From Blepharisma japonicum (taxonomy: Eukaryota; Ciliophora; Heterotrichea; Heterotrichida; Blepharismidae), in contig CATKHK010000055.1 in NCBI GenBank assembly GCA_949751835.1, forward strand, positions 1-64,000: a stretch of 64,000 nucleotides of DNA. The letters run 5' to 3'. How positions within the stretch are numbered: position 1 is the first letter of the stretch; each line of letters starts with the position of its first letter. The translations under genes were made by a program, and so were the position numbers. The notes beneath the pieces are model-generated. The model did not search any database. It was not told the origin of the DNA and worked only from the letters and a program-made list of their open reading frames with translations. Of the stretch, positions 3,267 to 28,315 are shown one piece after another.

Positions 3267-3308
3267 TAATATTAAGCTTGTGATTATTTATTTAAATGAT
3301 GTATTAAA

Positions 3309-3627: not shown

Positions 3628-3689
3628 TAATATTAAATTTTATTATTATTTAACTAAATAATATATTAAAATATACTCAGTTTATTAAT

Positions 3690-6542: not shown

Positions 6543-7260
6543 TTATATATATGTTATCCCTTTTAGGCTGAAATATATAAAGATGCCTATTGAAAATGAT
6601 TATTAATAATAATTTTAAGAGTTAAGGATTATAAATTTATTCTACTTTAATTCAAATTTGAAGCAAAAGTATTATTTTTCTGAGAACTAATCCTTTTAAA
6701 GCAGCAGATTCGGCTACTATAAAGCTGAAAATGATATCTATGACATTTAAAATTTTAAAAGCTGCTTTAAGGTCTACTTAAACTATTTGCAGGTAGATAA
6801 TATGTATTAAAAATTTTTAACGAGATAATAAAATTTTCATTCATATTAAATTATGAGATTATTTATATTAAGCTCTTTGCCCTACATTTAAATTTACATT
6901 TATAATGTAAATTTAATAAAATAAATTCAGCTTTATCACATTATTTTTATAATGAAAAACTTTATTAATTGTTAAGCCAAGATAATTGCTAGAAAGTTTC
7001 ATTAGCGTATCGAGCAGGCAGAAGATAAAGACATAATTTAAAAACATTTTATGGCAGAAGAGAAGCCATCAATTCATAATATGTTATATCAATTTATAGT
7101 TATTAATTTTTATTACTAATTAGCTTTATTCTATTTCATCAGAAAAAAAAACTAACGTTCTCAAAACAGAATTTTTCATTCTTGATAAAGATTATTTCTA
7201 AAACGGATTTTTTGTTATTTTGGCTATTAAAAAAACTCTCTCTTAATTCCAGTCGAATAA
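6543..7260. other. AT-rich intergenic stretch
   Basis: No gene or RNA seen. It lies between a decayed kelch-like copy and the divergent RING membrane protein gene. Confidence 0.5.
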
Positions 7261-8613
7261 ATGGTATTAAAGCATATGAAAGATGCCTATATTAATTATA
7301 TGATAATTCTACTGTTTATATGACTCAGCAACTGCCAAGAAATCGACGATCTTGTGCTAGGATCAAGCGAACAAATTTTTCAAGAATTAGCATGAAAATA
7401 TTTTAAACTTACCGGTGATTATTCAAACTCAGAATATATATCCATAGAACTGCACCTTCAGTCCTCAGCTGAAATCACTTTTTGTGCTAAAATAGGAAGC
7501 ATCCCCACTTCTAAGTCAAATCATATCAGTGCAAATTATTTTGATTATGATGGGTGGTACTTAAGTACAACAAATCAGAATTTAATTATCCCAACGATTG
7601 AAATTGAAGGAGATCTTTTCATCGGAATTTTTTCAAATAAAACCAGTGGGATTTATTATGAATTACATTCATTTTCCTCATCTTCTCAGCCTTGCTATAA
7701 TGAATGCTCGTCTTTTGGGCATTGTAGTGATGGAGTCTGCTTATGTGTTTCAGGATATATAGGAAGAGATTGTAGTTTTTCGGCTACAGGTCTATCTATT
7801 ATTGAAGACAATAGAATCGTTATAGATGCAAATGGTGTAGGATATGCAGCATTAACATTATCTGAATTAAATAAAAAATTATACATGACTGTTCTAAGCA
7901 GCGCTTACATCTTTTTATATGCAAATCCAAAATCGAATAGTGATGATAGTGCTTTACCAAGTCCTTATGAGCATGTAAAAAGTAAAAAAGGTATTCAATT
8001 TTCTTTTGTAGTCAGTCAAGGCCACTACAATACTTGGTATTTTGCTATTTATAACCCAGGTGATTGTGCAGCTACCATAACATGAAGTATACATGCTTCA
8101 GAAGGTGGCAGTAGCAGTCAATATCTTCTTTATATTTTAATAGTCATATCAGCTGGAATTTTAGCAGGATGGGTTGTTTTTGCAATTTATAAAACACGAC
8201 AAATTAGCAAAAAAAACGCTGTGCTAGTTCCTGAACCTGCTATAAGTATCGATTTTTTAAATAAAAATTTTCCAAAAGTGTCATTTAAAGCTAGAAAGTG
8301 CGAAGAAGATACAAAAAGCTGCTCTATATGCCTACAATCATATAATAAACAAGATATGATAAGAGAACTAAGCTGTGCCCATATTTTTCATGCAAAATGT
8401 ATAGACGCATGGTTTCAAAATAACACAGTTTGCTGTCTATGTAAAAGGGACTACAAACAAAATTTAACTATGGAGAACGAAGAGAGCCGAATCGAAGATG
8501 GACTAAGCGCAAATGCTACTCAATGGATCGTTGAAGATCTTGAAGGGCCAGCTGTAACTACAGAAGTGAACGAACTAGCAACCTTTAGAAACCAGCTGAG
8601 GAGCCATGCATAA
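7261..8613 (+). CDS. Type I membrane RING-H2 protein with EGF-like domain (putative E3 ubiquitin ligase)
   Basis: A 450-residue frame with TGA as Trp at four or so positions (for example LLFIWLSNC, ELAWKYF, TITWSIH). A signal peptide is visible near residues 11-25. An EGF-like cysteine block (CYNECSSFGHCSDGVCLC) lies at about residues 144-170, and one transmembrane helix at about 286-310. A RING-H2 finger follows in the cytosol: C354/C357, C372, H374, H377, C380, C391/C394. This is the architecture of membrane-anchored ubiquitin ligases of the Goliath/RNF13 kind, although the lumenal part here is not an obvious PA domain. A TAA directly precedes the first ATG (7261); ATG 7276 is an alternative start that keeps the signal peptide. 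Confidence 0.85.
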
Positions 8614-9128
8614 ATTTTGACGTGATGCTAGACTACTTCAAGACTATTATAATACTAACGTAATTTTTACAATAAAATGCATACATAAATTTGAAAAACA
8701 AGAATAATATATCAATCAAATAAAGTCTAAATATTTTAAAAAAAGTAATTTTTAAATACCTATTTTTAATCCAAATTAGCTTTTCTTTAAGATTTTCTTA
8801 TAGCAAAAGCTGAATTCAAGAATGTAATAAATGGCAATGTGAGAATAATAAAAATCATCAAGATCTCAATTGCTTAAGAAAATTTTTTGTCATTTATAAT
8901 ACTGTTTATATCTAATATCATAAGAAACTGATTTCTTTTAGGAATTATTTCGTTAGATGCTTAATATAATTTAAATGTAATTAATATAAAAAATGAGATG
9001 AATCAATTGCTTTAGATAATTCAATCGGTATGTAATATATATTAATAATTTAAATATTAAGGGTATATCAATTAAGAACATAATTAAATTATCTGCCCAT
9101 TATGATTTTATTGTAATAATTTCAAAAA
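8614..9128. other. AT-rich intergenic stretch
   Basis: No gene seen. Confidence 0.5.
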
Positions 9129-10162: not shown

Positions 10163-11536
10163 ATGGATCATGAATGAGAGCGCGAAAAATTCAAATATTT
10201 TCAAAACTTTAAGATAAAAAATTATGTTAGTAAAGGATCAAAAAATTTAATGATTGTGGAATTCACAGATCGAAGCAACTCAGACTTTCCTAATATAGCA
10301 TTGTTAAAAGAATTTAGATCAGTAAGGCCTCGATTCGAAAATGAAGCCAAAATGCTAGAAAAATGGTCAGCATTACACCCAAATATTCTGAAGCCTTACT
10401 ATTTTACTGAAATTGATGGAAAATTCAGGATTTTTATTGAGTACTGTGAATGTGGGAGTATTTCAAAAATTATAAATGAAAGAAAAAATAATAATTATCC
10501 GTGGTCAGACTCACAGCTAATTAATCATTTTATTACTATTGCCGATGTAGTTAATAGTTTACATGAGAAAGATTATGTTCACAGAGCTATTAAGCCTGAC
10601 AATATTTTTGTTAAAGAGAATGAAGTGCTAAAAATTGGTGATTTTGGCGATACAAAAGAAATTCATATAGGAGAATCAAAATTTGAAACACTTGGAACTT
10701 TACTGTATATGTCGCCTCGATTAAAGAACATGTGAAGTATTATTAAACCTGATAAAAGTGGGAAAAAATTAATTTTGCTGCTTGATTCGAAAAAAGAAGA
10801 AGTATGATCTGTTGGAAAAACTTTTTATGAAATGGCTACTTTGAATTTGGCAATAAGTTTGCCTGATGAAGAAGACGAAATTATAGATATGATGATAAGT
10901 GATATGAAATCGCGACCTCGAAGACTGATTAATTTATTAATTTGAATGCTAAAAGATAACTATATCGATAGACCGAATATGAAAGAAGTTTTGGAAATTT
11001 TGCATAAAATAAAAGATGAAATTACTGAAACCCACTCAGATTCACAAATTATACTTAAAGACTCATTCAGCTCTCTTGAAAAATACTTTGCAGAAAGCAA
11101 TGGAAGCAGTAATACAGTATCTTATGAAGAGAAAAGATCCTCAAAAGATAGAGCAATATATCGTGAGTGGAATTGAAATCAGTATGAATCAAATTTATAT
11201 GGATTTGACTCTTGAAAAACTAAATATAGTTTTGAAGAGAAAGATTGTGCGTTGCGTAGCTGCGATGATATAAATGTGCATGAATTTAGGCTAGACTATG
11301 ATAAAGATTATCGAAAAACTAAATATAGCTCTGAAGAGAAAAATTGTACGTTGTGTAGCTGCGATAATATATATGTGCACGAATGTGGGCTAGAATATGA
11401 TAAAGATTATATAGTTAACTATATTGCAACATCAATTAAGATTTCTGCATCCTTTGAAGAAATTAAATGCTTGAATTGCTCGAATCCTTTTCCAAAAGAG
11501 TTTTATATATGTGAAAAAAATCATTTTAGTTTGTAA
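10163..11536 (+). CDS. Kinase/RING-like array, paralog 1: pseudokinase (HRD changed to HRA)
   Basis: 457 residues with TGA as Trp (DHEWERE, KNMWSI, EVWSVG, LLIWMLKD). Kinase landmarks: beta-3 Lys at about K49 (ALLKEF), alpha-C Glu in NEAKML, Leu-His-Pro before beta-4, and DFG at 160-162. The catalytic loop reads VHRAIKPDN, so the catalytic Asp is Ala (residue 142), which predicts loss of phosphotransfer. There is no canonical glycine-rich loop. The C terminus carries CTLCSCDN, HECGLEYDKDY and CLNCSNPFP, a degenerate RING-like (RBR RING1-type) cysteine cluster, preceded by a partial tandem copy of itself. The leader ttatagaATG is shared with other paralogs. Confidence 0.82.
11214..11411 (+). 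repeat. Tandem duplication of a 99-nt unit inside the kinase paralog 1 gene
   Basis: 11214-11312 and 11313-11411 are two adjacent in-frame copies of 33 codons, each beginning KTKYS and ending DYDKDY or EYDKDY. The first copy has lost cysteines (ALRSC, EFRL) that the second keeps (TLCSC, ECGL), so only the second could bind metal. Confidence 0.85.
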
Positions 11537-12692
11537 TGTCTTTATATATCTTAATAGTAGATTCTTCATTATTATTCCAATCTAGGCTGATAAAATATAT
11601 GAATAATACTTGTCTTTTAGAATTTGGGGTGGAGGATAAAAAATTTTTATTTTTAACGTGAAAATCAAAACCTCGTAAATACTAATATAAAATTTATAAG
11701 AATTCTAGTGTAGATTAACAATTCTGTTATTGCAATAAGAGATATGCAATTATTACTCACTCTTAATTAACAACAGCAACACTTTGTTTGGCATTAAACT
11801 CGTAATATTTTTAAAGTTTGCTTGTAAAGAGATATATAATTTAAAATGGACATAAAAGTAATTGCATTTTTCTTTGTTATTTAGTTAGCAAGCTTAAAAT
11901 AAATAATTTTATATCATGATAATCTATTAAACCATATAATGAAATTGTCAAAGAAGATTTTTCTTTTATAAAATAAAATTCTTGAGCCATATACTTATTG
12001 CACGAATAAATGATATAAACTTTATAATATCATTATTGGATATGGACATAACTATAATCAGTTTATCATAAAATCTGTACATAAAGACTTTATGCATAGC
12101 AAGAGCCTTATAATATACATTAATTGTAAATTTTAATATATCTTCCTAAATTCTAGTAAAAGAATATAATAAAAATATGTCTAGTAGAAAATATTAAAAT
12201 AAAAGACCGATTTTAGGCAATAGAGTTACCTGAAAATCATTATATATATTTTAACCACTGCTCCCTTGAATCTTTATTTATTCAAAACAAAGAAGATAAT
12301 ATAAATGCATCTAAAATATACACGAATTAATCATATTCCGTGGGTACTATAATATATCAATATTAGTTCAGCTTACCTCTGCCAATCATTACTATTATAT
12401 GAATATCAAAAATTATATCGATTTCCTAAATTCAAAATAAAAATTTGAGAAAATTAGGAGTGGAGATCAAAATTTTTCATATAAAATACTCTTCTCAAAA
12501 TAAACCTTTGCTTTAATAAATATATCATTCGTTTATCTTTATATATAAAATGCATCCTAAATCTTTTCAATTTTAATCCACATCAATCACCATTTATCTT
12601 AATCGAAATATTTTCAAAATATCTCTAAGAAACGAATTTTTCTAGATTCCAAAATTTTTATTGTTATTGATTTTTAATTAGATTAAGCTTAA
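11537..12692. other. 1.1 kb AT-rich stretch without a gene
   Basis: I read both strands and see no frame with family features, no tRNA-like fold and no clear repeat. Confidence 0.5.
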
Positions 12693-13049
12693 TTAAAGTC
12701 CTACGACTTCGCCATGTTTAGATGCAGCCCATTTCATTACAGCTTCTGAGTGTTCAGCGGCAACTCCAAGTTCATTCATACTTTCCTGAAGGAATTGGGC
12801 AACTAGTCCAAATTGTTCTTCAGCAATATGAAGTCCAGTATGGATTTGGACAAGAGGTCTTCCAGTATATGGAGTTCCTGATCCCATGACATTTGAGAAC
12901 AGCTCTACTTGCAATCTCTTAACCTCAGCAGCGTCTCTTCCAACAAATGCAGCAGCTGTCACTGGGTTTGCAAGAATTTTTTCGTAGAGTCTGTCTACTA
13001 AAGCGACGATCGCAGCGTGTCCACCAACTTTTTCGAATAGGGTTGCCAT
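12693..13049 (-). CDS. Truncated (2/2) haemoglobin, group I
   Basis: 118 residues, full length for the trHbN/protozoan type known from Paramecium and Tetrahymena. Landmarks: N-terminal LFEKVGGHAAI, B-helix Tyr22 (LYEKI) at the B10 position that contacts bound ligand, PYTGRPL before the proximal His70 (QIHTGL), and a C-terminal helix ending HGEVVGL. These proteins bind O2 or NO through haem in the cytosol. The coding sequence is far richer in G and C than its flanks and contains no TGA codon. It sits inside the kinase array, and its upstream flank has been copied (see 13079-13340). Confidence 0.92.
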   Translation of the reverse strand: MATLFEKVGGHAAIVALVDRLYEKILANPVTAAAFVGRDAAEVKRLQVELFSNVMGSGTPYTGRPLVQIHTGLHIAEEQFGLVAQFLQESMNELGVAAEHSEAVMKWAASKHGEVVGL

Positions 13050-13078
13050 TTATTATCACAAGCAGTTATGGCAAATCT

Positions 13079-13340
13079 ATTTATATCGCTGAAAAACGGA
13101 TAAAACTAAAAATTATTTTAATTTTAGTAATAAAAATATTTTCTTGAAATTAGAATAAACTATAAAATTAATTTACAAAAATTTTTATTTAATAATAACT
13201 TAAATTATTTCTTATCATTCTATCTATATTTTTGATGGATTTAATATAATTATGGAATATTTCTAAATAAATAATAGGGCTTTTCGAATTTATGATGTTT
13301 AATTTTTGGTATAGTATAATAAAATTATAAAGATTCAGAT
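13079..13340. repeat. Duplicated globin upstream flank (second copy about 14205-14440)
   Basis: The run gaaaaac..aaaattattttaatttta..aataaaa, then ttatttaataataactt and ggacttttagaatt/ggcttttcgaattt, recurs in the same order near 14205-14440. It is part of a direct repeat of roughly 1.1 kb that also includes the decayed gene (13533 and 14480) and the kinase 5' end (13987 and 15085). Confidence 0.7.
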
Positions 13341-13532
13341 ATATCAAATAAAATTTTTGTTGTTGCTCAAATTCTTAAGAAATACATTGAATCATCAAAA
13401 CATTTATCAGCATGAAAGTAAGATCTTGCTATATGAACTCAGGATTTTTAGAACTGAAAATTTCTAGCTCTTAATTAAGATTATTGTAAAATTCTCTATG
13501 AGTATCTGAAGAATACTTTATTTAAAAATTAG

Positions 13533-13895
13533 TTACTCCCATTCAAACCTTGCCCCTAACTGTTTCACTTTTCCATATAAATGCCATAAATGCAAACGAA
13601 GTAAATTAGGATTAATCCCAAAACCATTCATCAAGTCACCTAAACCTGTAATGAGTCCAGCTGGGTCTATATACCACTTTTAAGAAAAAACGGAAATTCA
13701 TCTTCTATCATGTCAGAAATTCCCATAGCGTTGAGCCAAGAAATCTTTTTAAGCCTAACCGAATATGCAAACCATCTCTTTCCTCCTTATTCCCATGTCC
13801 TGCTTGAAACAGCTTCGAAATTTTGAGGCTAGTCAAGTCCTTCAATGCATAGGACAAAAATTCAAAGTAAGTCTTCTGTTTAATTACTATCCGGC
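13533..13895 (-). pseudogene. Decayed unrecognised gene D, copy 1
   Basis: Minus-strand remnant shared with 14480-14966 and 18012-18450. The C-terminal part is the best preserved of the three (GDLMNGFGINPNLL, LHLWHLYGKVKQL, stop TAA at 13533). The middle is broken by TGA TAG and a frame change, while the upstream part keeps LGLKRFLGS. No start or complete frame exists. I do not recognise the family. Confidence 0.6.
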
Positions 13896-13986
13896 ATAGT
13901 CAGCAATACAGTAGTTTTTCATTGCAAAATAAGTTTAAATTTTTATAATTCTAGCTTAATCAACATTTTAATTTAATCCTTATAGA

Positions 13987-14141
13987 ATGATGAGTCAAAG
14001 TAGCAAAAAGGACAAATATTTTAAAAATTTCGAAAGAAAAGGATACATTATAAAGGAGCCAAAGGATTATTAACAACTCATTTTGCAAGCATAGGTCCTC
14101 CATTTTTTCCAATAATCGCTGTTTTAAAGGAGTTTTACTAG
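13987..14141 (+). pseudogene. Truncated kinase 5' remnant
   Basis: It starts with the family leader (tatagaATG). The N-terminal block KYFKNFERKGYI matches YFENFDKKDYL of the 15085 paralog. One frameshift follows, then the TTHFASIGPP and AVLKEFY blocks, and a TAG ends it at the beta-3 strand. The rest of the kinase is absent: from 14142 the sequence matches the flank of the globin gene instead. Confidence 0.75.
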
Positions 14142-14479
14142 AATTTTTTTAATTCATTTGCAATTTCGCGTTTCTCCGTGCTATTTAAGAGAAATTTCTC
14201 TTGATGAAAAACTGACTAAAAACTATAAAAATTATTTTAATTTTAATAATAAAATTTTTTCTTGGAATTAGAGAAAGATATAAAAATTACTTGAAAAGAG
14301 TCTTTATTTAATAATAACTTTAATTTAATTCTTATCATTCAGTCTGTAAAAGACAATTTATTCTGAATTTATTATTGAATATTTTTAGGACTTTTAGAAT
14401 TCATGAGGTATGATTTTTGGTATTGTATAGAAATTTTCTTAAAGTATTCGAAAATGCCTTACTTAGAATTTGATTGCTC

Positions 14480-14966
14480 TTATCTAAACTTAGCCTTCAG
14501 TTGTGTCACTTTTCCTTGCAAGTGTCACAAATGCAGCCGAAGTAAATAAGGATGAGCCACCATGCCCATGCATCAATTCATCTTAGTCTTTGAAGAGTCC
14601 ATCTGAGCCATAAACCACTTCTAAAGCTATAAAATGAAAAATCTGAAATTCCATATGGATTTCGATCATGTTGGAGATTTCGTAGAATTGCTGGGCCAAG
14701 AAATTTTTTATGCCTAGCTAAATATGTAAACCAACTTCTTCCTCCTTATTTTAAGATCCTAATCGAAACGGCTTCAAAATTTGGAGGCTAGCCAAGCCAT
14801 TTAATGCATGAGTCAAAAAGTCAAAGCTTATCTTCTTTTTAATTGGACAAATATCCAGAGATAAAATTTTCAATTTTTTACAATTATTAGTAGATGGATA
14901 TCTACTGCGGAGGTCAGACGAAACAAAGGGCTGATTTAAAATTAAAAAAATAAAAAAAATTCGCAT
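14480..14966 (-). pseudogene. Decayed unrecognised gene D, copy 2
   Basis: It matches copies at 13533 and 18012. The upstream part is open for 71 codons (KISFDFLTHALNGLASLQIL) and stops at TAA. The following part (HKKFLGPAILRNLQ) is in another frame, and the C-terminal LRLHLWHLQGKVTQL in a third. The sequence is tightly linked 5' of the kinase at 15085, as copy 1 is linked to the kinase remnant at 13987. Confidence 0.6.
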
Positions 14967-15084
14967 GAGACTATCTGCATAATAGGAAACACAGTAATTT
15001 TTCCATTACAAAATAAGTTTAATTTTATAATTCAAGTTTTAATAAACTTATCAACATTTTTAATATTAATTTAATATTTATAGA

Positions 15085-16371
15085 ATGGAAGAGGACACAT
15101 ATTTTGAAAATTTCGATAAAAAAGATTACCTTAAAAAAGGAGACAAAGGATTAACAACAGCTCATTTTACAAGCAGAAGTCATCGGAATTTCCCAAAAAT
15201 CGCTGTTTTAAAAGAGTTTTATTCTATCAAACCAAAATATGAAAATGAAGCAAGATTGCTGAAAATATTCTCAGATCTTCATCCCAACATTGTACAATAT
15301 TATTACTCCACACAAATTAATGGCCATTTCAGAATTTTTATGGAGCACTGTGAATGTGGTAGTATTGCAAGAGTTATAAAGGAAAGAAAAAATTTCGAAG
15401 CACCGTGGACCAACTCAGAATTAATAAAGCATTTTAAAACAATTGCTGATGTAATAAAAACTTTGCATGAAAAAGGCTTTGCTCATAGAGATATGAAACC
15501 TGACAATATTTTTGTCAAAACAAACGAAATACTTAAAATTGGAGATTTCGGGGATTCAAATGAAGTAAAAATAGGAGGAAATAAAAACACTGTAACTGGG
15601 ACTCCAGTTTACATGTCGCCAGACTACAAAAAGCTTTGAAATAATCTTAAGCCTGATAAAGATAATAAGAAAAGAACTGAATTTCCACTTACAAAACAAG
15701 AAGAAGTTTGGTCAGTTGGAAAAACATTTTATGAGATGGCTGTATTAGAGGTTGGCTTGGCTTTTCCTGATGAAGAAAATAAATATTTGGAAATTGTTGA
15801 GAATGGTATGCGAACAAGGCCTCCAGAATTAGTAGAATTATTAAAATGAATGCTTAGAAAAGAATTTACAATTAGACCTAGTATGGATCAGGTTTTAGAG
15901 GAATTAGAGCATTTCGAAATAGATACCACTGAAAGATCCTCAAATTACGCTACAAATCCAGTAACTGAAGGAAATCCGTTTGATATACAAGATATTTATG
16001 GAAGCTTAACTCAAAATAACCCGGGTGGAAAATTTGTGCCTGACTCTGATACAGATAAATTATATTTCGGATTTGAGATTTTAACACACTCCCACGAAGA
16101 ATTAAAGCAGAATGAAGAGAGCAAATACTATTCACATTCTAGAAATATTTATGAAGTTGAACAATCAGCAAAAAATAACACATTGGAGAACCTGGAAAAT
16201 GACCGTATATTGTGCAATGAGTGTGGACTTGAAACTCAAAAAGACCAGCTAATAGAGCGCATTAAAACTTCTCTCAGTATAGGTTCAGAACCAAATCAAG
16301 TAGAGTGCTTAAATTGCTTAAGTCCATATCCAACAGAAATTGTTGATAGTCTAAATAATTATATCAGTTAA
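15085..16371 (+). CDS. Kinase/RING-like array, paralog 2 (catalytic motifs intact)
   Basis: 428 residues; TGA is Trp at KKLWNN and LLKWMLRK. Catalytic set is complete: beta-3 Lys43 (AVLKEF), alpha-C Glu in NEARLL, HRDMKPDN at 134-141, DFG at 154-156, GTPVYMSP, and EVWSVGKTFYEMA for helix F. The N-lobe lacks a normal GxGxxG loop. The C-terminal tail has CNECGLETQKDQL and CLNCLSPYP: two Cys pairs of the RING-like cluster remain, but other ligands seen in paralog 4 are lost. Serine/threonine kinase activity is plausible; its substrate is unknown. This is the best candidate in the array for an active enzyme. Confidence 0.85.
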
Positions 16372-16620
16372 TGCTTTGTTAGAGATTTATATTAATTATT
16401 TATCTTTGATACTTTGATATTTTCATATTTGATTTAAGATAAGAGATATTTTTAAGAAAAAAATATTTAGCATTCCATGAATATATGAAATTTATAATCA
16501 GCCTGACAATTCATTATGCTGAATAATAATCTGTAAATATAAATATAGATTCATTATAATTAATAATTGTTATCTAAAACTAATAATATTAAAATGGCTA
16601 TAATCCTTTAAGTGCCTGTA

Positions 16621-16725
16621 ATTTTATTACTCCTTCCTCAATGACGATTACGTTCAATTTAATTTATTCTTAAATCGGCAACTTGTCTACTAGTCATTCT
16701 GAGTAGATCACTATTATAGCATCCA
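16621..16725 (-). pseudogene. Relic of cyclo-ligase gene 3' end (a)
   Basis: The antisense of this stretch still reads like the terminus of the gene at 25641: SEQLVDELPIEE becomes a stop-ridden equivalent and IVTEEGVIK becomes VIEEGVIK. It lies downstream of a kinase paralog, in the same relation as the intact pair at 25241/25641. Confidence 0.6.
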
Positions 16726-16851
16726 AGTATATATGATTATACTCAAAATAAGAACATTTTGATTATTAATTTTATAATAAAAATTATAGAATTGTGAAAT
16801 TTATCAAAAAACTAAAAAATTAGTCTGGCTATAATTCTTCATTAGACGCTA

Positions 16852-16912
16852 ATTTATTACTCTTTCCTCAATAACAGTCATGTAAAATTTTTTCTTAAAT
16901 AAGCAGATTTAT
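16852..16912 (-). pseudogene. Relic of cyclo-ligase gene 3' end (b)
   Basis: Matches attattactctttcctca and the following bases of the intact gene's terminus, but shorter and more worn. Its second copy is at 19980-20045. Confidence 0.45.
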
Positions 16913-17340
16913 ATATAGGAACTCAAGAAGTTAAAACAGAACAGCTAGTAATTAAATAATAGGCTGCAAATTGTAAAAAAGATGCAATCAAAATAGTTTT
17001 AGCTGAATCAATATATCGTTACTTTCTAAAAAATTGTCTTAAAATTTTCAATTAAAAGAATTCCTAGCCTTTGGCCAATCTATTTTCTATGGCTCATGGG
17101 AATAGAGTGCCTTAATAAATATAATTTTTATAATTTTGTATAAATTCAAATCATTTATAATCAAAATAGTTTCAGCTTTATCAATATATCACTACTTTCT
17201 AAAAAATTGTTTTAAAATTCTCAATTAAAAGAAATTTCTAGCTTTGACCATCTATCCATGGCGCAATGGAATACAATGCCAAATAAATTATATAAATTCA
17301 CATCATTACTTATTAAAATTCATATTTATTTTGTAGAATC

Positions 17341-18018
17341 ATGAGAGACAATCATAGCGAAGAAGAAAAATTTGCATATTATCAGCAATTCAATATTTTA
17401 CATTCTGATGACAATTCAATCCAAAAAACATTGAAAGTTGTTGAATTTACTTCTCAAGAACATCAAGATTTCCCAAAAGTCGCAATTTTAAAACAATTTT
17501 ATAGGGTTCGCGAAGAATATAAAAAAGAAGCGAATTTTTTGGAAAAATTTTCAGCACTTTTCATAAACATTGTAAAGCATTATTACCATACAGAATTTGA
17601 TGGAAAATTTAGGATTTTTATGGAATACTGTGTCTCAAAAGTGATTGATAGAAGAAAGAATCAAAATACACCATGGACTGACTCAGAGCTGATAAATCAT
17701 TTTATTACTATTGCAGGGGTAATAGAAATTTTGCACAAAAATAACTACATCCATGGAGATATGAAGCCTGACAATATTTTTGTTAAAGATGATGAAAAAC
17801 TTAGAATTGGAGACTTTGGTGAACCAAAAGAAATAAGAATTGGAGAATCAAAATATGCAGCAAACGGAACAAAAATTTACATGTCGCCAAGCTATTTAGA
17901 ACACCGAAAAAGTCTTCCTGCTGATGAAGATGGAAAGAAGATATCTGAAGAAAATAGGCTTAAAGAAGAAGTATGGTCGGTTGGGAAAACTTTTTATGAG
18001 ATGGCTGCATTGCATTAA
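17341..18018 (+). CDS. Kinase/RING-like array, paralog 3, C-terminally truncated
   Basis: 225 residues. N-lobe features: AILKQFYRV with beta-3 Lys, EEYKKEANFLEK, then HGDMKPDN (HRD Arg replaced by Gly), DFG and the helix F block EVWSVGKTFYEMAA. At about 18011 kinase sequence stops and the sequence becomes gene D copy 3; the TAA that ends the frame lies just past this junction. The product lacks helices G-I and the RING-like tail, so it is probably non-functional or a fragment. It also has a short in-frame loss at EYCVSKV where paralog 4 has EYCYGSVSKV. Confidence 0.75.
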   Translation: MRDNHSEEEKFAYYQQFNILHSDDNSIQKTLKVVEFTSQEHQDFPKVAILKQFYRVREEYKKEANFLEKFSALFINIVKHYYHTEFDGKFRIFMEYCVSKVIDRRKNQNTPWTDSELINHFITIAGVIEILHKNNYIHGDMKPDNIFVKDDEKLRIGDFGEPKEIRIGESKYAANGTKIYMSPSYLEHRKSLPADEDGKKISEENRLKEEVWSVGKTFYEMAALH

Positions 18019-18450
18019 ATCATCTGAGCCTGTGATGAGCCCATCTGGGCCATAGACCACTTCTAAAAGTTATAAAATGAAAAATCAGAGATTTCATATT
18101 GTCTTCGATCATGTTGGAAATTTCGTAGAATCGCTTAGCCAAGAAATCTTTTAAGCCTAGCTAAATATGCAAACCAGCACCTTCCTCCTTATCTTAAGAT
18201 CCTGATTGAAACGGCTTCAAAATTTGGAGGCTAGCCAAGCTATTTAATACATGAGCCAAAAAGTCAAAGCATATCTTCTCTTTAATTGGAGAAATATCAA
18301 GAGAGATAAGATTTTCAATTTTTTATAATTATTAGTAGATAGATATCTACTGCGGAGGTAAGACGAAACAACAGGCTGATTTAAAATTAAAAAAATAATA
18401 AAAATTCGCATGAGATAATCCGCATAATTGGAAACGCAGTAATTTTTTCA
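18012..18450 (-). pseudogene. Decayed unrecognised gene D, copy 3
   Basis: Antisense remnant matching 14480-14966 over most of its length, including the LTHALNGL-like block (here AHVLNSLASLQILKPF) and LKRFLG, with several stops. Its left end is the breakpoint that truncates the kinase at 17341, and its right end leads directly into the kinase at 18532. Confidence 0.65.
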
Positions 18451-18531
18451 TTGCAAAATAAGTTTAAATTTTTATAATTCTAGTCTTAATCAGCTTATCA
18501 ACATTTTTAATATTAATTTAATATTTATAGA

Positions 18532-19428
18532 ATGCAGCGTGAAGAGGAAATATATTTTGAAAATTTCGATAAAAAAGAGTACCTTAAAAAAGGAGACAAA
18601 ATATTATCGACAGCTCATTTTACAAGCACAGGTCCTCCGAATTTCCCAAAAATCGCTGTTTTAAAGGAGTTTGGTTCTATCAATCCAAATTTTGAAAATG
18701 AAGCAAGATTGCTGAAAATATTCTCAGATCTTCATCCCAACATTGTAAAATATTATTACTCCACTCAAATTGATGGTCATTTCAGAATTTTCATGGAGCA
18801 TTGTGAATGTGATAGTATTAAAAGAGTTATAGATGAAAGAAAGAAATGTTCTGAACCGTGGACCAACTCAGAATTAATAAATCATTTTATTACAATTGCT
18901 GATGTAATAAAAACTTTGCATGATAATAACTTTGTCCACGGAGATATGAAACCTGACAATATTTTTGTCAAAGAAAACGAAGTACTTAAAATCGGGGATT
19001 TTGGGCTATCAAAAAAAATAGAGTTAGGAGTAAATAAAAACTTTATACCTGGGACTCTAAATTATATGTCACCACAATGCCAAAGGCTTTGAAATCGACT
19101 TTCGGCTGATAAAGATTGTAAGAAAAGAACTGAACTTCCACTTGCAAAACAAGAAGAATTAAAGCAGAATGAACAGAGCAAATATTGTTCATATGCTAGA
19201 AATATTCATGAAGATGAACAACAAGCAAAAATTAACTCATTGGAGAACCTAGAAAAAGACCGTGTATTGTGCAATGAGTGTGGGCTTGAGACCCAAAAAG
19301 ACCAGCTAATAGGGCTCATTAAAACTTCTCTCAGTATAGGTTCAGAATCAAATCAAGTAGAGTGCTTAAATTGCTCAAATCCATATCCAACAGAAATTGT
19401 TGATAGTTTAAATAATTATATTAATTAA
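18532..19428 (+). CDS. Kinase/RING-like array, paralog 4a, with internal 396-nt in-frame deletion
   Basis: 298 residues, TGA as Trp at QRLWNR. The N-lobe and catalytic loop are present (AVLKEFGSI, HGDMKPDN, IGDFGLSK, MSPQ). After LAKQEE the sequence jumps to LKQNEQSKYCS, which in the sister gene at 15085 lies 132 codons further on. Helices F to I are therefore missing, while the C-terminal CNECGLETQKDQL and CLNCSNPYP cluster is retained in frame. A shared GAAGAA at both deletion ends suggests microhomology. A kinase fold is unlikely to be complete; the protein may persist as a binding module. Confidence 0.8.
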
Positions 19429-19677
19429 TGCTTTGTTAGAGACTTATATTAATTATTTATCTTTAATACTTTGATATTTTCATATTTGATTTAAGATAAA
19501 GAGATATTTTTAAGAAAAAGTTTATTAGCAATCCATGCATATATGAAATTTATAATCAACCTAAAAATTCATTATGTTGAATATTAATCTGTAAATATAA
19601 ATATAGATTCATTATAATTAATAAACTTTTACCTAAAACTAATAATATTAAAATGGCTATAATGCTTTAAGTACCTG

Positions 19678-19785
19678 TAATTTTATTACTCCTTCCTCGA
19701 TGACAATTACGTTCAATTTTCTACTATGTTCTTAAATCAGCAGCTTGTCTACTAATCATTCTGATAGCTCCCCTATCATACATAA
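19678..19785 (-). pseudogene. Relic of cyclo-ligase gene 3' end (c)
   Basis: Duplicate of relic (a) at 16621, with further substitutions and insertions. Confidence 0.55.
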
Positions 19786-19979
19786 TATATACATAAATAA
19801 GGTTTTCAAGTTGATAATAGATCATAAAGAGGTATTTCAAAGAACAAAATATATAGCATTCAATTATATATGCTATATTCATAATGTGATTACTTTGATT
19901 ATTAATTTTATAATAAAAATTATAGAATTGTCAAATTTATCAAAAACTAAATTTAATATGGCTATAATGTTTAATTAGG

Positions 19980-20045
19980 TGCTAATTTATTACTCTTTCC
20001 TCAATGACAATCATGTGAAATTTTTTCTTAAATAGGCAGATTTAT
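19980..20045 (-). pseudogene. Relic of cyclo-ligase gene 3' end (d)
   Basis: Duplicate of relic (b) at 16852. Confidence 0.45.
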
Positions 20046-20288
20046 AGGAACTCAAGAAGCTAAAACAGAACAGCTAGCAATTAAATAATAGGCTGTAAAT
20101 TATAAAAAAAGAAGCAATCTCATTAGTTTCAGCTGAATCAATATATCGCTACTTTCTAAAAAATTGTCTTAAAATTCTCAATTAAAAGAAATTTCTAGCT
20201 TTTGACCAATGCCTAAATAACTTATAATCTTTATAATTTTATATAAATTCACATCATTTATAATCAAAATTAATATTATTTTTGTAGA

Positions 20289-21575
20289 ATGATGAGAGGC
20301 AATCATAGCGAAGAAGAAAAATTTGCATATTATCAGCAATTCAATATTTTATATTCTCTTGACAAATCATACAAAACCTTGAAACTTGTTGAATTTACTT
20401 CTCAAGAACATCAAGATTTCCCTAAAGTTGCAATTTTAAAACAATTTTATAGGGTTCGCGAAGAATATAAAAAAGAAGCGAAATTTTTGGAAGACTTGTC
20501 AGCACTTCACCCAAACATTGTTAAGCATTATTACCATACAGAATTTGAAGGAACATTTAGGATTTTTATGGAATACTGCTATGGAAGTGTCTCAAAAGTG
20601 ATTGAATGAAGAAAGAATCAAAATACACCATGGACTGACTCAGAGCTGATAAATCATTTTATTACTATTGCAGGGGTAATAGAAATTTTGCACAAAAATA
20701 ACTACATCCATGGAGATATGAAGCCTGACAATATTTTTGTTAAAGATGATGAAAAACTTAGAATTGGAGACTTTGGTGAACCAAAAGAAATAAGAATTGG
20801 AGAGTCAAAGTATACAGCAAACGGAACAGAAATTTACATGTCGTCAATCTATTTAGAATACCGAAAAAGTCTTCCTGTTGATGAAGATGGAAAGAAGATA
20901 TCTGATGAAAATAGGGCTAAAAAAGAAGAAATATGGTCGCTTGGGAAAACTTTTTATGAGATGGCTGCATTAGATCTTTATGCAAATTTTTTTACTTCAG
21001 AAAATGAAATTTTTAAAAAAGTTGATGAAGGATTGCAAAATCGACCCGCACAATTGATACGTTTATTAAAATGAATGCTCGCTGATGACTATAAAAATAG
21101 GCCTAAAATCGAAGAGGTCTTGGAGGAATTACAAAAAATAGCGCAAGAAACCGAAACAACTCATTCACATAATACAACTTTTTCTCATGATACAACTCGT
21201 CAAAATATCGGCTCCATCCATCACGGATTTAAAGAGGGGAATGCACTTTCTGCATTTCCTATTAAGGGATTTAGCAGTAATCAAAATGGTCTTGGTGGAG
21301 ACTTTCATAATCCCCATTCATCTGATAAAAGAGATTTTATACAGGAAGAAATTAAGCAAGATCAGACTCTTAATAGTTGTGAATTATGCAATAGTGATGA
21401 ACTTACACATGATTGTGGATATAAATATTGCAAAGATCAATTTTTAAACTTTGCCATCTGTTCATTGTATATTAATACATGTTCGGATTGGAAAGAAGTA
21501 GTATGCATAGAATGTAGACAACCATTTCCATTTGAAATTTATAATTGCCCAAATAATCATTTTAAGACTATTTAA
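20289..21575 (+). CDS. Kinase/RING-like array, paralog 4 (best-preserved RING-like tail)
   Basis: 428 residues, with TGA as Trp at VIEWRK and LLKWML. Kinase part: AILKQF beta-3 Lys, HGDMKPDN at 141-148, DFG, and EIWSLGKTFYEMA. The C-terminal finger is the fullest of the family: C364/C367 (CELC), then H374, C376 and C381 in THDCGYKYCKDQ, then C406/C409 (CIECRQPFP). The CG-x-x-x-C-K-D core recalls RING1 of RBR ubiquitin ligases. Two ATG codons open the frame; the first follows the conserved gtaga leader. An N-terminal pseudo- or active kinase plus RING-like finger suggests ubiquitin or zinc-dependent partner binding (inference). Confidence 0.82.
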
Positions 21576-21978
21576 TTACATGCTATATGGATGCATCTTG
21601 CATAGTATTCTTTGTTAATATTTTTAATTTGGCCAAAAGTTTAGGTTATCTTGTTGTTTATGAAAAAATAAAATATTAAAGTAAGAGCCTTATAAATTTT
21701 AATTTAATTTATTGCTAGTATTAAAGTTTTAGCAATATTGTCCAATTCAATATCCATAATGTCAAAAATGCTATCTTTCAAAGTCATGCTTTTGGATCTC
21801 TTTGACAAATAGAATGCTTTTACTTAAAAATTTCTAAATAATAAAATATTAGCAAAACGCTAGAAAAATAATTTGCTTTTCCTTATCATAATTGTTAGCT
21901 TTATTAAAAATTATAGATTCAATTATAATATTTTGAATACTTAATTAAAGCTGTCAATAAATTTCAACTATATATGAA
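21576..21978. repeat. Duplicated kinase 3' flank (copy of 25242-25640)
   Basis: Starts ttacatgctatatggatgca here and ttgcatgctatatgtatgca at 25242, and stays collinear up to the cyclo-ligase sequence. This ties the 20289 and 23982 kinases to one duplication. Confidence 0.8.
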
Positions 21979-22236
21979 TTATTTTATTACCCCTTCCTCA
22001 GTGACAATTATGTGCAACTCTACATCATTTTCTTCAATCGGTAATTCATCTACTAACTGCTCTGAGTAGCCTATCCCTATTCTTACTGTGTTTGGAAAAG
22101 CCTTAAATGTCCTATTATAATATCCTTCCCCGTACCCAATTCTATATAAATATAAATTAAATCGAAGAAAAGGAGCGATTATTACATCTGGAATTCTGAT
22201 GGGGCTTTCACTATTTGGCACCTTAATTTTATACAA
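21979..22236 (-). pseudogene. 5'-truncated cyclo-ligase copy
   Basis: 85 codons match the C-terminal part of the intact gene at 25641-26216. The matching frame opens with TTG where the parent has an internal ATG, and upstream codons are stops. The active-site loop is altered: RIGYGEGYYNR against RIGYGGGYYDR in the intact gene, so even the retained part has lost key residues. Confidence 0.85.
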
Positions 22237-22736
22237 TTAAACTTTTATCAAAACTAAAAAATCAGTCTGGCTATAATTCTTCATTAGATGCTAATTTATT
22301 ACTCTTTACTCAATGGCAATCATGTAAAATTTTTTCTAAAATAAGCAGATTTATACTTTTTACTCTGAATAGCCAGCTATCATCATATTTTTCATGAGCC
22401 CAATATTAAATTCAGCTCCTTTATTTTTTCTGCAATTAAGGTTTTCACTCTCAAAGGAAAATATATAGGAACTCAAGAAGCTAAACAGAGCACTAGTAAT
22501 TAAATAATAGGCTGCAAATTGTAAAAAAAGAAGCAATCAAAATCATTTCAGCTGAATCAATATATTTCTACTTTCTAAAAAATTGTCTTAAAATTCTATT
22601 AAAAGAAATTTCTAGCTTTTGACCAATCTATATTCTATGGCGAAAAGGAATTCAGTACCTAAATAAATATAATTTTTATAATTTGCGATAAATTCACCAT
22701 TGTTATAATTAAAATTAATATATTATTTGTAGAATC
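22237..22736. repeat. Duplicated spacer before kinase paralog 5
   Basis: Collinear with the second half of 16372-17340 and 19429-20288 (shared tatataggaactcaagaag, gctgaatcaatatat and gtagaatcATGAGAG). It contains a further worn cyclo-ligase relic around 22290-22390. Confidence 0.7.
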
Positions 22737-25241
22737 ATGAGAGACCATCATAGCGAAGAAGATTTTAAATTTGACAACTATCAGCAATCCATAATTTTAG
22801 ATTCTCATGACAAATCAAGCGAAAAAACATTGAAAGAGGTTGAGGACTTGTCAGTACTTCACCCAAACACAGAATTTGATGGAATATTTAGGATTTTTAT
22901 GCAATTCTACCATGGCAATATCTCAAAAAAGATTAAAGAAAGAAAGAATCAAAATAGACCATGGACTGACTCAGAGCTGATAAATCATTTTATTACTATT
23001 GCAAGGATAATAGAAACTTTGCACTGCAAAGACTCCATACATAGAGATATGAAGCCTGACAATATTTTTTTTATAGATAATGAAGAACTTAGAATTAGAG
23101 ACTTTGGTGAATCAAAAGAAATAATATTTGAAGAGTCGAAATATATAGCAAATTGAACAGATATTTACATGTCTCCAAGCTATATAGAATACTGAAGAAG
23201 TCTTCCTGTTAATAAAGTTGGAAAGAAGAGATCTGAAGAAAATAGGCTTAAAGAAGAAGTATGGTCAGTTGGGAAAATTTTTTATGAGATGGCTGCATTA
23301 GATCTTCATGCAAAGTTTCCTGCTTCAGAAAATAAAACTTGAGAAATAATTGATAATAAATTGAGAAATCGACCTGCAAATTTGAGAATTTTATTAAAAT
23401 GATTGCTTTCTGATGACTATAGAAATCGGCCTAAAATAGAAATGGTTTTGGAGGAATTACAAAAAATAGCGCAAGAAAACAAAACAACTCTTCAATCTGA
23501 AACAGCTCTTCAACCTGAAACAACTTTTACAGATGGTACAACTCGTCTAGGTGCCAACTCCAGCCATCAGCATTATAAAGAGGGGAATGTAGAAAGGATG
23601 ATTACTATTCAGGAACATGGCAGTAATCAAAGTAATCCTGATGGAAAATTTAGTATACCCCATTCATCTTTTAAAAGATATTGTGGGCTTAGTAGTTCTT
23701 CCGTAAATACTCAGGAAGAAATTAAGGAAGATCAATCAATTTTTACAAATACTCAGGAAGAAATTAAACATGGTGAGACTGTTTCTGCAAATACTCAGGA
23801 AGAAATTAAGAAATATCAATCAATTTTTACAAAAACTCAGGAAGAAATTAAACATGGTGAGACTGTTTCTGCAAATACTCAGGAAGAAGTTGCCTGCATT
23901 AAGGATTTTTCGCTAACCAAGCATCCCAAAGGTTCACACACTTTGCCCAATTATCAAAGAGTACCTAATTCAACATGAAGAATGATGAGACGCAATCATA
24001 GCGAAGAATATTTAAAATTTGCATATTATCAGCACTTCAATATTTTAGATTCTTATGACAAATCAAGTGAAAAAACATTGAAAGTTGTTAAATTTACTTT
24101 TAAAGAAGGTCCTAAAGATTCCCCTAAAGCTGCAATTTTAAAACAGTTTTATAGGGTTTGCAAAAAATATAAAAAAGAAGCAAAATTTTTGGAAGAATTT
24201 TCAGCACTTCACCCAAACATTGTAAAGCATTATTATCATACAGAATTTGAAGGAACATTTAGGATTTTTATGGAATACTGCTATGGAAGTGTCTCAAAAG
24301 TGATTGGAGGAAGAGAGAATAAAGGTATACCATGGACTGACTCAGAGCTGATAAATCATTTTATTACTATTGCAAGGGTAATAAAGTTTTTGCACGACAA
24401 TGACTACATCCATGGAGATATGAAGCCTGACAATATTTTTTTTATAGATAATGAAGAACTTAGAATTGGAGACTTTGGTGAATCAAAAGAAATAATATCT
24501 GAAGAGTCGAAATATACAGAATATGGAACAGAAATTTACATGTCTCCAAGCTATTTAAAACACTGAAGAAGTCTTCCTGTTAATAAAGATGGAAAGAAGA
24601 TATCTGAAGAAAATAGGCTTAAAGAAGAAGAAGTATGGTCAGTTGGGAAAACTTTTTATGAGATGGCTGCATTAGATCTTCATGCAAAGTTTCCTGCTTC
24701 AGAAGATGAAATTTGCGAAATAATTGATTATAATTTAAGAAATCGAACTGAAAAATTGAGATCTTTATTACGATGAATGCTCACTGATAACTATACAGAG
24801 AGGCCTAAAATCAAAGAGGTCTTGAAGGAATTACAAAAAATAGCGCAAGAAACCGAAAGAACATTTTCAAATTATACAGCTTTTTCACATGATACATCTC
24901 ATCTAAGTACAAACTCCACCGATTTACTATTTAAAGTGAAGAATGCAGATGGAAAAAGTGCTTTTCAGGAATTTAGTAGTAATAAAAATTGTTTTTCTGA
25001 TCTTCTTCTTAGTGATTCAGTAAAATGTAAGGAAGAAATTAAGCAAGGTGAGGCTATTTCTGCAAATTATCAGGAAGAAGTTAAACAATATCCAATATTT
25101 GAAGAATTTGACAGTGATGAAAATAATGAAATTATGAGTACTTATATTTTTGAATCATGTAATAGTGATTTATGCATAGAATGTACACAACCATTTGAAA
25201 TTGAAATTTATGATCGATTTATTGATTTTGATAATATTTAA
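22737..25241 (+). CDS. Kinase/RING-like array, paralogs 5 and 6 fused: tandem double kinase-like protein
   Basis: With TGA as Trp one frame of 834 residues is continuous. The first unit (22737-23978) lacks the beta-2/beta-3/alpha-C segment: KTLKEVEDLSVLHPN jumps past the AILK Lys, so it has no ATP-anchoring Lys although HRDMKPDN and DFG remain. Its tail holds four 14-residue repeats and has lost the RING-like finger. It reads RVPNSTW (TGA 23976-23978) straight into RMMRRNHSEE, the start of the second unit. The second kinase has AILKQF, HGDMKPDN, DFG and helix F, and a shortened finger (SCNSDLCIECTQPFE). ATG 23982 remains as a possible separate start, but the usual spacer and leader are missing before it. 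Confidence 0.78.
23706..23885 (+). repeat. In-frame 42-nt tandem repeats
   Basis: Four 14-codon units beginning NTQEEIK or KTQEEIK, plus a fifth partial one, alternate between two types (one ending SIFT, one ending ETVSA). The higher-order period is thus 84 nt. Paralog 6 keeps a single diverged version (KEEIKQGEAISANYQEEV). Confidence 0.85.
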
Positions 25242-25640
25242 TTGCATGCTATATGTATGCATCTTGCATAGTATTCTTTGTTAATATTTTTAATTTGACC
25301 AAAAGTTTCGAGGTTTTCTTGTTGTTTATGAAAAAAAAAATTAAAGGAAGAGCCTTAAAACTTTTAATTTAACTTATTGTTAGAATTAAAGTTTTAGCAA
25401 TATTATCCAATTCAGTATCCATAATGTGAAAAATGCCATTTCAAAATCATGCTTCTGGATTTCTTTGACAAATAGCATGCTTTTACTTGTAAATTTCTAA
25501 ATAATAAAATGTTGGCAAAACGCTAGAAAAATAAGAGATTTTCCTTATCATTTTTGCTAGCTTTATTAAAAATTATAGATTCAATTATAATACTTTAAAT
25601 ATTTAATTAAAGCTGATAATAAATTTCAACTATATATGAA
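25242..25640. repeat. Kinase 3' flank, parent copy of 21576-21978
   Basis: Between convergent kinase paralog 6 and the cyclo-ligase gene. No gene seen. Confidence 0.75.
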
Positions 25641-26216
25641 TTATTTTATTACCCCTTCCTCAGTGACAATTATGTGCAACTCTACATCATTTTCTTCAAT
25701 CGGTAATTCATCTACTAACTGCTCTGAGTAGCCTAACCCTATTCTTACTGAGTTTGGATAAGCCTTAAATGTCCTATCATAATATCCTCCCCCGTATCCA
25801 ATTCTATATAGAGAAAAATTAAATCCAACAAAAGGAGCTATTATTACATCTGGAACTCTGATAGGGCTTTCACTATTTGGCACCTTAATTTTATACATTC
25901 CTTGTACAAGGCTTTTTTCCTCCCCATCTCATTCTCTAAATATAAGCGGCTGACCTTTTCCTATAACTACTGGAAGGCAAATAACATAAGACTGTTCCTT
26001 AAAAAGGTTAAGGATAAATTTACAATCAATTTCAGAACCAATTGGATAAAACCCTGAAATAATTCTGGAGCGGGGCGGAATATTTTCTTTTATCAAGGGA
26101 AACGTTTTGGTTCTAAGATTTTCATAATAAAGCTCTTGTTGAGAAAGTAAGGATCTATGAATTATTTTCCTCCGTTCCAATAGCCTTAATCGTAAGGCCT
26201 TTTTGGTTGTTTCCAT
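25641..26216 (-). CDS. MTHFS: 5-formyltetrahydrofolate cyclo-ligase
   Basis: 191 residues, usual length for the family; TGA is Trp at FREWDG. The enzyme uses ATP to convert 5-formyl-THF to 5,10-methenyl-THF in folate one-carbon metabolism. Landmarks: N-terminal basic LRLRLLERRKII, FYPIGSEID, the substrate-binding FRE-W stretch, IIAPFVGFN, and the signature RIGYGGGYYDR, followed by the C-terminal GLGYSEQLVDELP. It is the only intact copy here; truncated or worn 3' ends lie after several kinase paralogs, so this locus is likely the donor. Confidence 0.93.
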
Positions 26217-26653: not shown

Positions 26654-28315
26654 ATGAGTGAAAAATACTCAATGGTTCGACTCCTTGGCGAAGGGTCCTT
26701 TGGGAAATGCTACTTAGTTGAAGCTTCTAGTGATCGATCTCTCTGCGTAATTAAACAAATTGATATTCGAACAATGTCGCCATCAGAAAAAGATGAGACA
26801 GTTAAAGAAGCACTAATACTGAGAAGTCTTGAGCACCCCAACATTATCCACTTCAGAGACGCCTATACAACTAAACGCGGAAAACTGTGTATTGTTATGG
26901 ACTATGCTGATGGTGGTGACCTCCAAAGCAGAATTCAAAACCAAAAAGGAAAAAATTTTCCGGAATATGTAATTTTAGATTGATTTGTCCAAATCTGTTT
27001 AGCTATCAAGCATATTCATGACAGGAAGATTTTGCATAGAGATTTAAAAAGCCAAAATATCTTTATTACAGCCAATGGAAGAGTAAAACTAGGTGACTTT
27101 GGGATTGCGAAGGTTCTGAGCAAGACCACTGATAATGCAAAAACAATGGTTGGGACTCCGTATTATCTATCTCCTGAAATCATAGAAAACCGACCATATA
27201 GCTTTAAAAGCGATATTTGGTCATTAGGAGTTCTTTTATACGAAATGTGCAGCCTAAAGCCACCATTTGATGCTTCATCTCTTCATTTTTTAGCCTTGAA
27301 AATTGTAAGAGGAGTGTATCCTGCACTTCCAGCCCAATATAGTAGAGACTTGAAAGCCTTGACAGCAAAAATGCTTGCTACTGATCCACAGCGTAGACCT
27401 TCAGTTCACCAAATTCTAAAAGAGCCAATAATTCGGAATCGAATTCAAAATTTTTTATCATCTTCCAAAAGAGCTGAAGAATTTTCTCATACAATTTTAC
27501 ATAATCAGGACATTTTAAATTACAGACCATCTGAAGAAGCCAAAGATCAACAGCAACAAGAAGAAGGTGCTCAGGAGATCAAACCTGCCATGTCCAAATC
27601 TAACCCAAAGCCAGACAAAAGATATGAGCAGGGCGAAGAAAACAAAAACGAGCCTGAGCAGCAGCCAGCTATGAAAGAAGCTAAAACTCCAAAATTAAAA
27701 TCTGCGTGGTCAGAAGAAAGCAAAAGCCCAGTGCCTCAAGATAATAAAACGAAAAAAAAGAGAGCCTCAAAAAAACAAGAAGAAACACCACCTGAACCAG
27801 GGCATGCTGATAGAGAAGTGGAAAGAAAAATGATGCTTGACGATATTAGAAGAAGGAAAAAAGAGCTTAAAAGTCAATCTCAAGAATTTCAGTTTGTAGG
27901 TGCTGAAGAAAAAGAGCAGAAAGAAGAAGATGCCATGCTTTATGAAATGGGAGAAGCTATGCTCGCACAAGAGTCTGATGCACAGGAAGAGGCTACTATG
28001 GCGACTGAAAGCGAAGTAGTGCCACCTGATAGAGAAGATGACATTGCAGTAGATGAAGAAAGTCAGCCAACACAGCCTTTGCCTGAAGTAGAAACTGCTT
28101 ATAATAAAATTGAAGCACTGAGGCTATATCTTGAAGAAAAACTTGGAGAAGAAGTCCTTGTTGAAGCTTATAGAATCATTAAAGAATGCAACGCAAATGA
28201 AGACGAAATTGGATATGATAAATATTACCCTTATCTAAAGCACTTGATGAATAGAGAAACCCAATTAGAGTATTTGCCTATTATTCAAGCATTAATTGAT
28301 ATGGAGAGTTATTAA
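26654..28315 (+). CDS. NIMA-related protein kinase (NEK family)
   Basis: 553 residues; TGA is Trp at VILDWFVQ. Full catalytic set: GEGSFG loop at 12-17, Lys34, HRDLKSQN at 128-135, DFG at 148-150, GTPYYLSPE and SDIWSLGVLLYEM. The SPEI and KSDIWSLG features with LKSQNIF are typical of NEKs. The C-terminal third is charged, predicted coiled coil (KMMLDDIRRRKKELK), and ends in a helical block IEALRLYLEEKLG. NEKs in ciliates control cilia length and the cell cycle. Its stop lies 12 nt from the stop of the convergent neighbour. It is unrelated in detail to the array kinases just upstream. Confidence 0.93.

Follow-up and report, generated by a model that had tools for sequence, protein, structure and literature searches.

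Protein kinases and ubiquitin ligases of the RBR type meet in trans in well-studied pathways; in that of PINK1 and Parkin, a kinase works with an RBR ligase and the two are separate proteins. The tandem kinase proteins of plants carry two kinase domains per protein, one of them without catalytic residues. Among heterotrich ciliates, the Stentor kinome as surveyed by Reiff and Marshall in 2017 is said to include novel domain architectures and may already contain reports of kinase fusions. Proteins that unite a RING with a kinase are already known, as in plant KEEP ON GOING (KEG), where phosphorylation bears on self-ubiquitination (PMC5385374); the part used of an account of the Phytophthora kinome names no RING among the accessory domains (PMC3019232). 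Literature searches aimed at fusions of kinases with RBR, IBR or RING modules gave no kinase-RBR fusion among the matches listed, from sources represented by partial texts and with the text of the Stentor kinome outside their scope. Here we describe an array of kinase genes with finger-like tails in the heterotrich Blepharisma japonicum, at 10163-25241 of the window analysed, which covers the opening 64 kb of contig 55 (CATKHK010000055.1) in a genome of 45.2 Mb. Loci elsewhere in the same genome, taken out by protein searches, carry L-numbers (L004, L009-L068).

The kinase-tail architecture is established, as are the restriction of the tail, within the range of the searches, to a single clade of kinases, the retention of the catalytic kinase residues in most members, the lack of any detectable RING2, and rapid change of amino acids in a frame that is mostly preserved. 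Beyond this, the array is probably, though by no means certainly, a tandem and recently expanded branch of Ser/Thr kinases that lack a Gly-rich loop and bear a zinc module descended from a ligase of the RBR type. Two signalling systems, kinase and ubiquitin-ligase-like tail, would then be combined in one protein, which is unusual.

A kinase family with cysteine-rich tails

The fusion of a kinase with a finger, proposed in the initial annotation, is real and recurs at many places in the genome. A query of 70 residues from the tail found 12 places genome-wide, its own included, and every one lies behind a kinase of the family formed by units K1 to K7 of the array. The count of paralogues across the genome that the initial annotation had suggested gave 27 related kinase units by protein searches and reading of loci, of which the window contains seven and the rest of the genome 20. 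A Cys-rich tail is found in 24 of the 27 (damaged in K7b, and for L017b located in the adjoining locus L018), the units without one being K4, K7a and L017c.

When the 27 family units and 14 other kinases of this genome, 41 in all, were placed in a maximum-likelihood tree, the family formed one clade against the others (support 100/99), separate from five NEK-like kinases of the genome, which were labelled by eye (100/99). For this tree K5 was entered without its tail, and L004, in which no HRD was found, was left out. The Gly-rich loop, which the copies had been said to lack, is indeed found by regular expression in 0/27 family kinases, compared to 2/3 NEK-like controls (again labelled by eye). 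The six catalytic residues (beta-3 Lys, alpha-C Glu, HRD Asp, Lys, Asn and DFG Asp) are complete in 20 of the 27 units, at least one being missing from K1, K7a and five others. Pfam Pkinase matches all seven of the proteins scanned, with E values of 3.7e-23 to 4e-48 (K7a being matched only as part of K7), and the Foldseek matches listed for the predicted kinase domain of K6 are kinases. Beside the C187 copy at L009 stand two further kinases (336-3061) with another Cys-rich tail, the HRD Asp and DFG Asp being absent from both.

On the codons seen in these genes TGA is read as tryptophan (table 4), since in-frame TGA occurs in 74 of the 134 genomic kinase matches scored and TAA or TAG in 10 (counted by hand), and since the conserved Trp of the EEVWS motif is TGA in K1 and TGG in K3. 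Code 6, in which TAA and TAG are glutamine, was set aside on the same counts; a tally of stop codons was made under table 4 and is therefore uninformative about the genetic code. The signal for 15-nt introns was weak, this length being seen in 3 of 9 cases; the code suggests a Blepharisma-like heterotrich (PMC4967479). Read with TGA as Trp, the array holds seven kinase units and one remnant. All copies listed in the initial annotation are present and begin where it placed them; those at 22737 and 23982, which it listed as 22737+23982, share a single 834-codon frame because the TGA between them is Trp. A repeat search recovered a 300-nt stretch of kinase sequence that occurs seven times (family D1), and the kinase units with their spacers are segmental duplicates, the spacer pieces being 70-92% alike.

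All units lie on the forward strand. K1 (10163-11536) is a pseudokinase, its HRD Asp being replaced by Ala (HRAIKPDN), and its tail finger is of the long form; the first half of this finger is doubled by a 99-nt tandem repeat at 11214-11410, one of the halves having lost some Cys. The remnant (13987-14138) is the N-terminal part of a unit, with around 75% DNA identity to the starts of K3 and K5 (family D12). K3 (15085-16371) is an intact kinase with all six catalytic residues and a short-form tail. Both K4 and K5 retain the six catalytic residues with most of the C-lobe absent: K4 (17341-18018), which is 88% identical to residues 1-229 of K6, ends shortly past the VWS motif and has no tail, while in K5 (18532-19428) the N-lobe and catalytic loop are joined ahead of the VWS motif to a short tail, the remaining C-lobe being lost and the frame preserved. 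K6 (20289-21575) is an intact kinase and the most RING-like copy; its long-form finger (21378-21572) contains CELC, HDCGYKYCKD, CIEC and CPNNH. K7 (22737-25241) is the fused frame of two units, of which K7a (22737-23978) has no beta-3 Lys, helix C or finger, and K7b (23982-25241) has a damaged finger with the last CxxC alone left. As in K3 and K6, the catalytic residues of K7b are kept within a complete domain. The linker of K7a contains 42/84-nt tandem repeats (23705-23888) encoding NTQEEIK repeats.

Forms and ancestry of the tail finger

The long form of the tail, CxxC-x(4-9)-HxCG-x(26-28)-CxxC...EIF/Y.CxxxH, is complete in K1, K6, L012a, L012b and L018. One or two of its ligands are changed in L010, L011, L017a and L031, and in L009 a one-base shift splits it. 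The short form, CxxCG...CxxC, is carried by K3, K5 and two L013 genes, and sits on two branches of the kinase tree. The C-terminal cluster that had been attributed to the copies in general is thus found in those at 10163, 15085, 18532 and 20289, is damaged in that at 23982, and is absent from those at 17341 and 22737; the motif CxxC...CGxxxCKD...CxxCxxPFP given for it is exact at 20289 only, the copy at 10163 having CGLEYDKD and those at 15085 and 18532 the short form. When the DNA around unit ends was inspected by eye, in case the tail resumes beyond the stop, no clear splice was seen.

The kinship of the tail to RING1 was addressed with a profile built on 12 RING1 fingers of RBR proteins encoded in the same genome, which was compared, as were IBR and RING2 profiles, to 12 tails using hhalign. 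The tails aligned to RING1 from before C3 to beyond C7/C8 with a score of 28.3 (probability 77%); the scores for IBR and RING2 were 15.6 and 15.9. This score was reached by 0/100 shuffles of all columns (mean 10.6, maximum 19.4) and by 0/100 shuffles in which the Cys/His columns were fixed (mean 13.0, maximum 26.4). Foldseek returned 96 matches for a model of the K6 tail, and RING proteins account for 48 of the 50 listed; among these the highest TM scores over the query length, 0.50-0.53, belong to ARIH2 (0.53) and to AO7 and 1wim (0.51).

Fuller versions of such a tail appear to be present in relatives outside the window. Pfam RING models match L014 (zf-RING_2, 9e-5) and L019 (zf-C3HC4, 4.5e-4), both below the Pfam cut-off, and the local RING1 profile matches L014, L019 and L020 at E values of 3e-5 to 1.4e-4. 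In L019 and L020 the RING1-like finger is followed by an IBR-like finger, and L015 and L016 have an IBR-like half. IBR matches below the Pfam cut-off occur in L021 (7e-4), L026 and L016, and the local IBR profile gives 3e-4 for L021 and 6e-4 for L026. The tails of these last two comprise a finger, an IBR and a RING2-like end in which, as judged by eye, Gly-Ser takes the place of the catalytic Cys, such that L021 and L026 are possibly dead RBR kinases. The RING- and IBR-like modules of such sister kinases occupy the position of the window tails, and the majority of the kinases that carry them split off in the tree below those with window-type tails, the deepest branches being L021, L026, L009a and L009b, followed by L020, L015 and L016. 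The RING2 profile matched 0/23 family frames at E values up to 5. Canonical RBR loci were also surveyed (L032-L068, part of 119 IBR matches): a kinase lies in the finger's frame in 0/37 of them, and three of the 37 (L051, L059 and L066) have a kinase frame that is not in the frame of the finger. L029, considered as a family member, was rejected as an RBR protein without a kinase (by eye). Ten full-length IBR matches are clustered on one strand at G000:C125:85000-105500, perhaps a second expanding ubiquitin-ligase array.

Several results weigh against a RING1 origin of the tail. H4 and C6 are missing in 12/12 aligned tails and C5 in 11/12 (K6 being the exception), so that the C3HC4/C3H2C3 ligand set does not occur in them. 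No Pfam model reaches its cut-off with any tail, nor with the fuller RING or IBR tails of the relatives; in the profile search of the tail proposed in the initial annotation, Pfam thus gave nothing above its cut-offs, and the profile-profile alignment to RING1 scored above the shuffles. The long-form tails alone score lower against RING1 (24.7, probability 52%). In a single-sequence hidden Markov model search with the local RING1 profile, K1 was matched at an E value of 0.88 and the other window tails, K6 included, were unmatched; the best reversed-sequence control reached 1.9. Of five models of the K6 tail folded alone, one has a predicted hairpin and helix at a pLDDT of 67 and the other four lie at 31-38, the tail is disordered in the full-length AlphaFold2 model of K6, and none of the Foldseek matches is significant (best E value 0.10). 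The second finger of L019 and L020 rests on whole-tail matches to RBR loci and on inspection by eye, because the local IBR profile gave no match in either. In the tree L014 and L019 group with the window-type tails, the support being modest (83/81); a single origin of the window-type tails is therefore not established, while being compatible with the approximately unbiased test (p-AU 0.198, not rejected). The rows of this tree were chosen by likeness to the window kinases, some relatives of L021 being left out.

Alternatively, the tail could be an independent zinc ribbon, or another small CxxC...CxxC knuckle, acquired by the kinase family, with no RBR ancestry and with a likeness to RING1 that arose from convergent Cys spacing. 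When ten tails were scanned singly, three matched Zn_ribbon_3 (best 0.022) and two Zn_Ribbon_TF (best 0.0025), below the Pfam cut-off, and the zinc-ribbon models fit the short-form tails better than RING does; the sole Pfam match of the K6 tail was zf-RING_4 at an E value of 1.4. The loss of H4, C6 and mostly C5 is consistent with this origin as well. However, none of the 100 shuffles that keep the Cys/His columns attains the RING1 score, the structures listed for the K6 tail model are RINGs and not ribbons, and at this position the tails of sister kinases are RING- or IBR-like. An independent ribbon thus appears unlikely, though it deserves serious consideration. At the other extreme the tail could be a minimal RING that still recruits the ubiquitin-conjugating enzyme (E2), such that kinase activity and ubiquitin transfer are combined in one chain. 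The RING-like model of the K6 tail and the precedent of KEG are in its favour, yet the canonical ligands are lost from the window tails, neither Pfam nor the local profiles find an IBR or RING2 in the window copies, and no RING2 is matched in the 23 family frames; such a working ligase is very improbable. RING1 ancestry of the tail is therefore supported and not proven: the profile and shuffle results and the RING proteins among the non-significant Foldseek matches speak for it, the weak single-sequence search and the lost ligands against it.

If the tail is an eroded RING1, an E2 would no longer be recruited in the usual way. The presence of C9 and H10 together in 7/8 of the aligned tails that have C1 and C2, and in 0/4 of the others, along with the placement of the short form on two branches, suggests that the long form binds two zincs at an altered site and that the short form has one site, though few events lie behind this pattern. 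In the long form one zinc could be bound by C1 and C2 with the new C-terminal CxxxH and another by HxC with the last CxxC; the short form would keep the second of these sites only.

Evolution of the array

It had been suggested that the array evolves rapidly, with copies at all stages of decay, and this is borne out by substitution rates and indels and by the presence of a remnant, a truncation and a C-lobe deletion. In recent pairs the ratio of nonsynonymous to synonymous substitution (dN/dS) ranges from 0.89 to 1.47 for the kinase and from 1.3 to 4.0 for the linker. Nine Fisher tests, uncorrected, gave two values below 0.05, for the linker of K6/L009 (p 0.012, dN>dS) and the tail of K3/K5 (p 0.049, dN<dS). 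Between K6 and K7b the downstream flank is 92% alike and the coding part 80%; between K3 and K5 the flanks are 83-90% and the coding part 86% alike, the flank being no slower; and between K4 and K6 the upstream flank is 61% alike, perhaps through being out of register, and the coding part 94%. In some copies the frame is kept while the amino acids change fast, and other copies are plainly broken.

Such a pattern could mean that the array is junk, formed of relaxed copies of a dispensable kinase gene which decay after segmental duplication, with variation in the tails that carries no meaning. A dN/dS near 1, as in the recent pairs, may be plain relaxation; the tail of K6/K7b, in which the finger is damaged, has 1.92. 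Decay would also suit the remnant, the truncated K4, the C-lobe deletion of K5, the doubled unit K7 and the shifted tail of L009. Long frames are nevertheless retained by K1, K3, K6 and K7, and indels divisible by 3 number 22/29 in coding sequence and 5/24 in flanks, in pairs that share copies and so are not independent; the K6/K7b indels of 7+8 and 4+14, probably alignment splits, stay in the count of 22/29. Furthermore, dN/dS is 0.28 in the K3/K5 tail and 0.22-0.38 in the kinase of the older pairs K1/K3, K1/K6 and K3/K6, where dS, at 1.0 to 1.6, is near saturation. Mere decay is accordingly a rather unlikely account of the whole array. Alternatively, by analogy with plant tandem kinase proteins, the pseudokinase copies and the fused K7 might act as parasite decoys or self-recognition factors. 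The tandem arrangement, the 7/27 units without a catalytic residue, the double kinase K7 and a linker dN/dS of up to 4 would suit such a recognition family, but an excess of dN over dS falls below 0.05 in only 1/9 tests and there is no tie to a pathogen or mating type, so this role seems improbable. The evolution of the array is compatible with diversification as well as with a relaxation of constraint, between which the data do not discriminate.

On the derivation from an RBR ligase that we favour, a zinc module (RING1, in some relatives with IBR) would follow the kinase after a variable linker, the ligase part of a kinase-RBR lineage having eroded into a zinc interaction module that expands in tandem. 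Stabilised by zinc, the tail might then steer the kinase as a docking module to which a partner, E2, ubiquitin or another copy binds, and diversification of linker and tail could change its partners. The fullest version of this scheme is tentative, with appreciably less than even likelihood: that the lineage captured an RBR ligase in cis, as a counterpart of PINK1 and Parkin in a single chain, that the catalytic RING2 was lost in all members, and that RING1, its ligands swapped repeatedly, became a docking module with two rewired zinc sites, whose tandem copies now diversify into a repertoire for partner recognition.

The spacer at 21576-22235 carries a fragment of the adjoining 5-FTHF cyclo-ligase gene and is 91.5% identical to 25242-25897; the fragment, matched by Pfam at 1.7e-19 on the minus strand (25650-25898), was duplicated along with the kinase units. 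A bacterial-like globin gene lies at 12567-13049 on the minus strand (Bac_globin 5.3e-18), and the stretch upstream of it (13079-13318) has a 73% identical copy within the array (14194-14429). The array lies between a RING finger gene (8260-8520; zf-RING_2 1.9e-12) and a gene for an ordinary kinase of NEK-like type (26654-28300; Pkinase 2e-67). At L018 an open frame of 2585 codons (1139-8893, minus strand) has TPR-like repeats, as judged by eye.

Comparison with known systems

If the derivation from an RBR ligase is correct, a ligase half that was fused and then eroded would reveal which part of an RBR protein serves a kinase. The apparent graded series within one genome, from RING with IBR through RING and half-RING to a four-Cys remnant, could record the stepwise loss or swap of ligands in a two-zinc cross-brace finger, and in the tandem array one may look for recognition that evolves fast in a ciliate of free-living habit.

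Plant tandem kinase proteins resemble the locus in the architecture of K7, which has two kinase domains in one frame, one without catalytic residues. NEK kinases are close in sequence, NEK1 being the best match of K3 in the PDB (1.4e-17), but the family differs from them in the absence of the Gly-rich loop and in its own clade. Unlike PINK1 and Parkin, kinase and finger are here in one chain, in which no catalytic ring was found. KEG differs in having ankyrin and HERC2-like repeats, whereas the finger here is C-terminal, RBR-like and eroded. With RBR ligases such as ARIH and Parkin the array shares tails that align with the RING1 of the genome's own RBR proteins and sister kinases with RING- or IBR-like modules; it differs from them in the partial loss of the canonical ligands, the lack of a RING2 match in the 23 family frames and the fusion of the finger to a kinase.

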